Assembly (NCBI RefSeq): GCF_947492365.1
Contig: NZ_CANLMB010000002.1
Span: 620,001-684,000 of the forward strand
Reading direction: 5' to 3'
DNA length: 64,000 nt
DNA from: an uncultured Erythrobacter sp.
GTDB lineage: Bacteria > Pseudomonadota > Alphaproteobacteria > Sphingomonadales > Sphingomonadaceae
The notes under the pieces were generated by a model that was not told the DNA's origin, did not search any database, and worked only from the letters and a program-made list of their open reading frames with translations. Shown here piece after piece: positions 17,276 through 24,211 of this stretch. Numbering within the stretch: the first letter of the stretch is position 1; the number at the start of each line of letters is the position of its first letter. The translations under genes and the position numbers were made by a program.

Positions 17276-17351
17276 AGGGGTGTAGCTCAGTTGGTAGAGC
17301 ATCGGTCTCCAAAACCGAGGGCCACGGGTTCGAATCCTGTCACCCCTGCCA
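17276..17351 (+). tRNA. tRNA-Trp (CCA)
   Basis: A full cloverleaf: acceptor AGGGGTG (17276-17282) pairs with CACCCCT (17341-17347), discriminator G, and CCA is encoded at 17349-17351. The anticodon loop CTCCAAA gives anticodon CCA at 17309-17311, and the T loop TTCGAAT is canonical. tRNA-Trp before secE is a common bacterial order; here two micro-ORFs and a reverse-strand symporter lie between. Confidence 0.97.
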
Positions 17352-23759: not shown

Positions 23760-23790
23760 CGCTTTCCTACATCGTCTGACGATGACATGA

Positions 23791-23823
23791 GGGGCTGGAA
23801 GCTTGGTGCTTCCGGCCCCTTTT
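23791..23823 (+). terminator. Intrinsic terminator after rplA
   Basis: A 12-bp stem (GGGGCTGGAAGC at 23791-23802 with GCTTCCGGCCCC at 23808-23819, one wobble) around TTGGT, followed by TTTT. Confidence 0.92.
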
Positions 23824-24211
23824 GTGTTCAGCGTTTGAGCTTCGCGCGGGCGGTTGCCACCGAGAAATAGACTAACGCGTTCCCGTCGATGGATAGGAGG
23901 AAGCACCATTGCGACGGCGTTGGTGGCTCGAAAGAGCTAATGCTGCGACTGAGTTGCTTAGTGGTGGGAGGGTGTGGTTACGCTCCACTCCCCTTTGCAG
24001 GGATCGGATTTACAGTCCGATTGCCAGAACTACTGACTTTACCCTCCCACAGGGAAGGCAAGTCGCGGATCAGAATGTTAGCTGATCGCACGCCTCGCAG
24101 GCGCGCGGATGCGCGCCGTTAAGCGGCGTAAGGATATCGGTGAAGGTTGGTCACGATATTGTGCATGGCGGGCCAGCTAGGCGTCTTGGACTTGTTGGTC
24201 AAGCGCTCGCT
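23824..24211. other. 388-base non-coding stretch around the tRNA-like element
   Basis: Between the rplA terminator and the cinA-like stop I see no supportable protein gene. A 77-codon plus-strand frame (23889-24122) runs straight through the cloverleaf and is rejected. A weak minus-strand promoter is possible: TTGACC (24202-24197) and TAGCTG (24179-24174) with 17 bases between, about 125 bases before the cloverleaf. Confidence 0.4.
23962..24048 (-). ncRNA. tRNA-Tyr-like cloverleaf with non-consensus D and T loops
   Basis: On the minus strand, acceptor GGGAGGG (24048-24042) pairs with CCCTCCC (23972-23966), then A73 and an encoded CCA (23964-23962). Inside are a D-arm-like hairpin GTCAG/CTGGC (24037-24023), an anticodon arm with 6-bp stem and loop CTGTAAA giving anticodon GTA (24013-24011), a long variable arm CCCT/AGGG with a GCAA tetraloop (24002-23991), and a T-arm-like hairpin GTGG/CCAC (23988-23974). 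The body is 84 bases, as for tRNA-Tyr. Odd points: the T loop is AGCGTAA, not TTCRANN; the D loop TAGTT lacks GG; and two bases before the acceptor can pair with the A-C of the 3' end. Confidence 0.55.

Follow-up and report, generated by a model that had tools for sequence, protein, structure and literature searches.

A phage-type tRNATyr in Erythrobacter, probably captured and kept as an inducible back-up under a putative leader-peptide attenuator

We found an apparently extra tRNATyr(GUA) in a 64,000-nucleotide stretch of the genome of an uncultured Erythrobacter sp. (the window). It belongs to a tRNATyr family of phages with eight acceptor pairs and four T-stem pairs (8/4), and it is preceded by a leader that resembles an attenuator. 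We consider it likely that a phage-type tRNATyr of this kind was captured once by Sphingomonadales, and that it now stands alone under a ribosome-mediated attenuator as an inducible back-up.

The 8/4 tRNATyr and its family

The element lies on the minus strand and is 87 nt long with CCA (84 nt without).

23962..24048 (-): 8/4 tRNATyr(GUA), 87 nt including the encoded CCA; 94.4 bits with model R2
24041..24048 (-): 5' strand of the acceptor stem, 8 nt, partner 23966-23973
23966..23973 (-): 3' strand of the acceptor stem
24023..24037 (-): D arm, 5-bp stem and 5-nt loop TAGTT (loop 24028-24032; A18 and G19 in our own numbering)
24003..24021 (-): anticodon arm, loop CTGTAAA, anticodon GTA at 24011-24013
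23991..24002 (-): variable arm with GCAA loop
23974..23988 (-): T arm, 4-bp stem, loop AGCGTAA (23978-23984; G55 and C56 in our own numbering)

A preliminary description of this stretch had proposed a tRNATyr-like cloverleaf here. Its coordinates, strand, helices, CTGTAAA loop with GUA, GCAA variable arm, G1-C72, A73 and encoded CCA were all confirmed, and the D-loop and T-loop letters are as it gave them. The eight acceptor pairs, the four T-stem pairs and the attenuator-like leader upstream (24119-24202) were absent from it. The CU-GUA-AA loop, G1-C72, A73, the long variable arm and the CCA end are all Tyr criteria. The predicted minimum free energy is -42.3 kcal/mol (z = -4.72), and 0 of 200 shuffles are equally stable. 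The element is a single copy within its own genome (G000), where the tRNA set looks complete and a canonical tRNATyr(GUA) is found at C1:462879 (64.5 bits with RF00005), so the possibility raised earlier that it might be the only tRNATyr does not apply. One TyrRS gene scores above the cut-off in this genome; a dedicated second TyrRS was rejected, as the second matches score below it. Because the host has a canonical tRNATyr as well as one TyrRS, the element is, by sequence, an extra tRNA, which upholds the earlier proposal of an additional tRNA with Tyr identity letters. It would be charged by the ordinary single TyrRS of the host.

Neither ARAGORN nor Rfam reports the element, and their sole report in the window is a tRNATrp at 17276. 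The element scores below the gathering score of RF00005, the Rfam model of the canonical 7/5 tRNA, and is not among the 46 matches of a whole-genome search with this model up to E = 1. Two side observations concern the same genome. At 23769-23825 of the window, Rfam asX1 gives a match below its threshold (24.9 bits, cut-off 70), which covers a terminator-like hairpin after rplA and is probably just the terminator. At another locus (L036, C1:1993400-1993850), the 5' half of a tRNAThr(CGT) gene is duplicated beside the intact gene, as an integrated element would leave it.

A model built from four copies (R1), together with a pattern scan that gave 7 genome matches and 108 viral matches, led to phage contigs. 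As a control, the pattern with one N too many gave 0 genome and 8 viral matches. One of the seven genome matches, L066, is not a tRNA and was discarded. Of the 108 viral contigs, 19 were excluded on sight as coding-like, and 89 were scored with the model, as were ten bacterial loci. This search gave 101 matches in 99 loci. Four of the matches (two 30-bit matches, L156 and the decayed L056) were dropped before counting and three named phages were added, giving 100 sequences, 56 of them distinct; 51 of the 56 were used for covariation. With model R2, family members score 71-101 bits, and the best other match in the genus, class and phylum samples under strict filters scores 43.8 bits. In the genus, the next kind of match after the window element scores at most 36.8 bits.

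The 56 distinct members share an 8-bp acceptor stem, an AAA linker, a 5-bp D stem with a 5-nt loop, A26 and a 4-bp T stem, all present in the window element, as well as a 6-bp anticodon stem. Each of 22 stem pairs is standard in 91-100% of them. Covariation in relatives, a check proposed in the preliminary description, bears out the fold: over the 51 sequences, 98.9% of the stem cells are paired, double changes occur in 21 of the 26 pairs, and 0 of 500 shuffles reach any of five measures. Acceptor pair 8 is T-A in 55 of the 56 members, the window element included, and A-T in Sinorhizobium phage Phosso. This one compensated change supports the 8/4 over the 7/5 pairing. The anticodon loop CTGTAAA is kept in 54 of the 56. 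Compensatory stem changes, invariant loops and a single clade across several genera indicate a selected and not a decaying element, as had been proposed.

The preliminary description also held that the bases forming the D-T elbow had been lost. Letters 18, 55 and 58 are indeed off consensus, but all 56 distinct members keep G19 and C56. Positions 18/55 are G/T in 46 members and A/G in ten, with no mixed case, and the window element has A18/G55 in place of G18/U55. Since G19 and C56 are invariant and 18 and 55 change together, we conclude from these letters that the elbow contact is exchanged, not lost. The stand-alone bacterial copy of G1007 (G18/T55) nests in the A18/G55 group in a 71-nt tree (support 0.952 for the group of six and 0.607 for the closer grouping), which would mean that the 18/55 pair reverted together. 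The coupled change amounts to a natural experiment on the tRNA elbow. Elbow changes are also carried by the staphylococcal tRNAGly used for cell-wall synthesis, and this likeness in kind would suit a tRNA that supplies Tyr to a non-ribosomal tRNA-dependent enzyme and is induced at Tyr scarcity. Such a role is very improbable here, as phage relatives with consensus elbows exist and no gene for such an enzyme lies among the about 16-18 neighbours of stand-alone copies that were examined (12 with a Pfam match).

Phage arrays and bacterial carriers

Phage tRNA arrays commonly contain members of the 8/4 tRNATyr family, most of which escape ARAGORN and Rfam. ARAGORN named the member tRNATyr in none of the 89 viral loci and made two overlapping calls, a tmRNA (L104) and a tRNAPyl(cta) (L094). 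The copy in Erythrobacter phage vB_EliS-L02 is one that ARAGORN does call. When 15 loci were searched with RF00005 at its gathering score, all 15 members went unreported. Three phage records contain copies that are not annotated: those of Rhodobacter phage RcXuper, Sinorhizobium phage Phosso and Cellulophaga phage phi38:1. In RcXuper (L181, 3001-3177), the 8/4 tRNATyr directly precedes an annotated conventional tRNATyr, so that the two kinds stand in tandem. A 6-kb stretch of vB_EliS-L02 (L180, 46-4838) has 30 tRNA/tmRNA genes by ARAGORN against two annotated CDS. The member that ARAGORN calls tRNAPyl (L094:12476-12562) has a CTA (amber) anticodon, and there may be amber-decoding phage relatives of the 8/4 tRNATyr. 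BLAST searches with the window element gave no match in plasmids and one 20-base match in phages; the array of L055 gave no match in plasmids, and a family member gave only a short match to a Bacillus phage tRNATyr.

In 47 of the 50 loci with at least ten tRNA genes, ARAGORN found no other tRNATyr, with the limit that these loci are stretches and a second tRNATyr could sit outside them. A decoding tRNA is favoured because the 8/4 architecture is the sole detectable tRNATyr in most of the phage arrays examined. The preliminary description had suggested a tRNA mimic with a possible role outside translation, and the altered elbow, the 8/4 fold and the unusual D arm would suit a non-decoding decoy for TyrRS or tRNA-modifying enzymes, or a regulatory RNA. 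We regard this as quite unlikely in view of these arrays and of the conserved anticodon loop, and nothing found pointed to a non-translational role. A report on Sinorhizobium phage AP-J-162 gives 66 tRNA genes for 19 of the 20 amino acids, without a tRNATyr (PMC11242549). A missed 8/4 member would fit this apparent absence, and the family may offer an answer to large phage tRNA sets that seem to be without tRNATyr.

In bacteria, BLAST of 100 genus genomes gave three further copies (G090, G096 and G040). R2 finds carriers in four of 114 genus genomes, in six of 397 genomes of the family sample and in six of 396 of the order sample; in the class (289) and phylum (249) samples the window's own genome is the only carrier. 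The three other genus carriers each have a match resembling that of the canonical tRNATyr (33.9-35.1 bits). Of the 13 bacterial loci in all, ten stand alone, and the other three (G155, G1141 and the decayed G110, L056) belong to tRNA arrays. In the 71-nt tree, the ten stand-alone copies group as a single clade (support 0.949) within the phage sequences, nearest to viral L136 and L154, both of which have A18/G55.

The stand-alone copies occupy about eight gene neighbourhoods: cinA-like/L1 (the window), nitroreductase/CobT, acyl-CoA dehydrogenase/RecQ, amino acid permease, GSDH, citrate synthase/kinase, L25 and MauE. The next downstream gene is convergent in seven of the ten, and there the tRNA is consequently the only product. 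In the relative G007, about 200 bp separate cinA and rplA, with no element between them; in the window the distance is 452 bp. A sporadic distribution (four of 114 genus genomes) and the one decayed array copy are what might be expected of a phage remnant in decay or of a site that serves only for integration. This explanation is scarcely credible and was rejected, since the stems are intact and compensated, the upstream unit is kept, and the ordinary neighbours vary between copies, with no phage or integrase kind among the neighbour proteins with a Pfam match.

The leader ORF and its alternative hairpins

The region upstream of the tRNA contains the following features.

24197..24202 (-): TTGACC, -35-like box, 36 nt before the leader ATG
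24174..24179 (-): TAGCTG, a poor and weak -10-like hexamer after a 17-nt spacer
24119..24166 (-): leader ORF MHNIVTNLHRYPYAA*, two Tyr codons (TAT, TAC)
24111..24117 (-): leader segment 1 (GGCGCGC)
24100..24106 (-): leader segment 2 (GCGCGCC), partner of segment 1 or segment 3
24088..24094 (-): leader segment 3 (GGCGTGC)
24068..24087 (-): further hairpin GATCAG..CTGATC between leader and tRNA

This unit was first recognised by upstream comparison of the eight stand-alone copies then known; the leader ATGs and segments were chosen by eye. A TTGAC box stands 36-39 nt before the ATG of a putative 14-15-codon ORF in all ten stand-alone copies, and the stop codon lies 70-111 nt from the tRNA. The predicted peptides have one to three Tyr each, in total 26 Tyr in 137 codons against 3.3 expected from the 2.4% of eight window genes. 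With one leader per type (six of the ten), there are 16 Tyr in 81 codons, for which a binomial P of ~1e-10 is only indicative because the enrichment was noticed before it was tested. G1007 and G1175 were found after the leader had been noticed and provide a fair test: both have the leader unit, with three Tyr each. The array copy of G1141 is without it. TTGAC with such an ORF precedes none of the 82 phage copies and none of the 30 ordinary tRNA genes scanned in the window's own genome. A short ORF with at least two Tyr at the leader distance is found before three of the 82 phage members and none of the 30 ordinary tRNA genes, in no case with TTGAC.

A leader model (R3) built without G000 and G090 places both at the exact ATG (15.6 and 20.2 bits, respectively), with scores within the noise of a whole-genome search. 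In the 114 genus genomes, beyond G096, G040 and G090, R3 gave nine weak matches (19-27.9 bits), six of them above the 20.2 bits of G090. None was accepted as a further leader: L271 and L272 fall within a long coding ORF, and the rest were judged unrelated from their letters alone. As six unrelated places outscore G090, the R3 matches of G090 and G000 count as support by position only. In 93 phage loci, nothing scored above 11.9 bits.

A promoter scan with the default consensus reported nothing in the 24197..24202 region. The spacing between TTGAC and ATG suggests that transcription starts at or near the leader ATG. In alphaproteobacteria, some attenuators have leader ORFs that are leaderless. 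The mRNA of the window unit would probably be leaderless too, as is known in alphaproteobacteria; a study on Caulobacter gives 375 leaderless mRNAs (PMC4117421).

By predicted energy, mutually exclusive hairpins occur at the stop codon in ten of ten stand-alone copies: 1:2 at -11.2 to -14.4, 2:3 at -5.7 to -13.8, and 0:1, in which the last ORF codons pair with segment 1, at -8.0 to -15.4 kcal/mol. The segments of G000 and G090 (GGCGCGC, GCGCGCC, GGCGTGC) differ from those of the others (for example, CGGGGTG, CGCCCCG, CGGGGTG), with both pairings kept. Helix 1:2 shows no double changes among eight aligned leaders, and a two-sided change appears only when G000 and G090 are set beside the other eight. 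For four of the ten leaders, the predicted folding is not stronger than that of shuffles (z -0.78 to -1.61); the mean z of the ten is -2.51. No T run of an intrinsic terminator follows hairpin 2:3. A C-rich leader stretch at 24052-24058 is complementary to the tRNA 5' strand GGGAGGG and could hold back tRNA folding; by eye and without a control, this complementarity is present in seven of the ten copies and not in L069, G1007 and G1175.

Some of these features would also suit a decoding tRNATyr that is made constitutively, its leader being a remnant or a processing signal that does not sense Tyr. The U-run terminator is absent, the Tyr codons are down to two in the window (YPY) and one in G090, and there are the four leaders that fold like shuffles. 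On the other hand, all ten copies, in about eight neighbourhoods, retain TTGAC, the ORF length, the position and the Tyr codons, and the two copies found later matched the leader prediction. We therefore consider constitutive synthesis unlikely.

A proposed circuit and known systems

Under the attenuator that we prefer, plentiful Tyr-tRNA would allow the ribosome to reach the stop codon and cover segment 1, so that hairpin 2:3 forms and little tRNA is made. A ribosome stalled at the Tyr codons would cover the strand with which segment 1 pairs in 0:1, so that 1:2 would form in place of 2:3 and the tRNA would be made. Transcription without a U-run might be stopped by Rho, an RNase or another factor. 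The induced tRNA would be charged by the ordinary TyrRS. Such an inducible back-up would be most useful when normal tRNATyr is lost, for example, to a tRNATyr nuclease.

We favour tRNATyr loss, of the kind caused by retron-Eco7 or Septu, as the trigger that may have selected the unit, because an extra tRNA would help little under pure Tyr starvation. According to two reports, retron-Eco7 and Septu remove tRNATyr and a phage tRNATyr rescues; the Septu cut site is the tRNATyr variable arm, and Septu also cut the tRNATyr of phage T6 (PMC11555353, PMC13096335). Anticodon nucleases would probably cut the element too, because its anticodon loop is ordinary. It is conceivable, and we offer it tentatively, that the unit is a self-sensing spare tRNA: a divergent phage tRNATyr under leader-peptide attenuation, induced by stalling at Tyr codons, that restores translation after nucleases or competitors have destroyed the normal tRNATyr. 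A phage counter-defence would then have been domesticated as tRNA insurance. An inducible and structurally different host tRNATyr would bear on how cells survive the tRNATyr nucleases, such as those of retron-Eco7 and Septu. Literature searches, largely outside subscription journals, listed no case of an 8/4 or otherwise unusual phage tRNATyr or of an attenuator before a tRNA gene.

Mukai et al. (2017) reportedly described 8/4 tRNAs for Ser and His in bacteria and phages. The window element resembles the 8/4 tRNAs and allo-tRNAs in its 8-bp acceptor and 4-bp T stems, and differs from them in being a tRNATyr with a long variable arm; one account describes 8/4 tRNAs as Sec, selC* Cys and allo-tRNA species (PMC7609411). 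The 8/4 architecture is shared with vB_EliS-L02, RcXuper, Phosso and phi38:1 (R2 82.8-94.4 bits), while Brevundimonas phages gave a BLAST match only, with an annotated tRNATyr. Unlike the window element, the tRNATyr genes of the named phages stand in arrays, have no leader and keep the consensus 18/55 letters. The tRNATyr of phage T5, which counters retron-Eco7, is likewise phage-encoded and rescues from tRNATyr loss (PMC11555353). It was rejected as a family member: in a search in which members scored 82.8-98.9 bits, it reached 26.3.

The textbook targets of attenuators are biosynthetic operons and synthetases. Like the trp-type attenuators, the unit has a short putative leader ORF with codons of the amino acid that would be sensed, and its hairpins 0:1, 1:2 and 2:3 map onto trp 1:2, 2:3 and 3:4. 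It differs from them in that the hairpin at the terminator position has no U-run and in that the gene controlled would be a tRNA, not a biosynthetic or synthetase gene. If so, the loop would be closed on the tRNA itself, a direct circuit for sensing tRNA loss.
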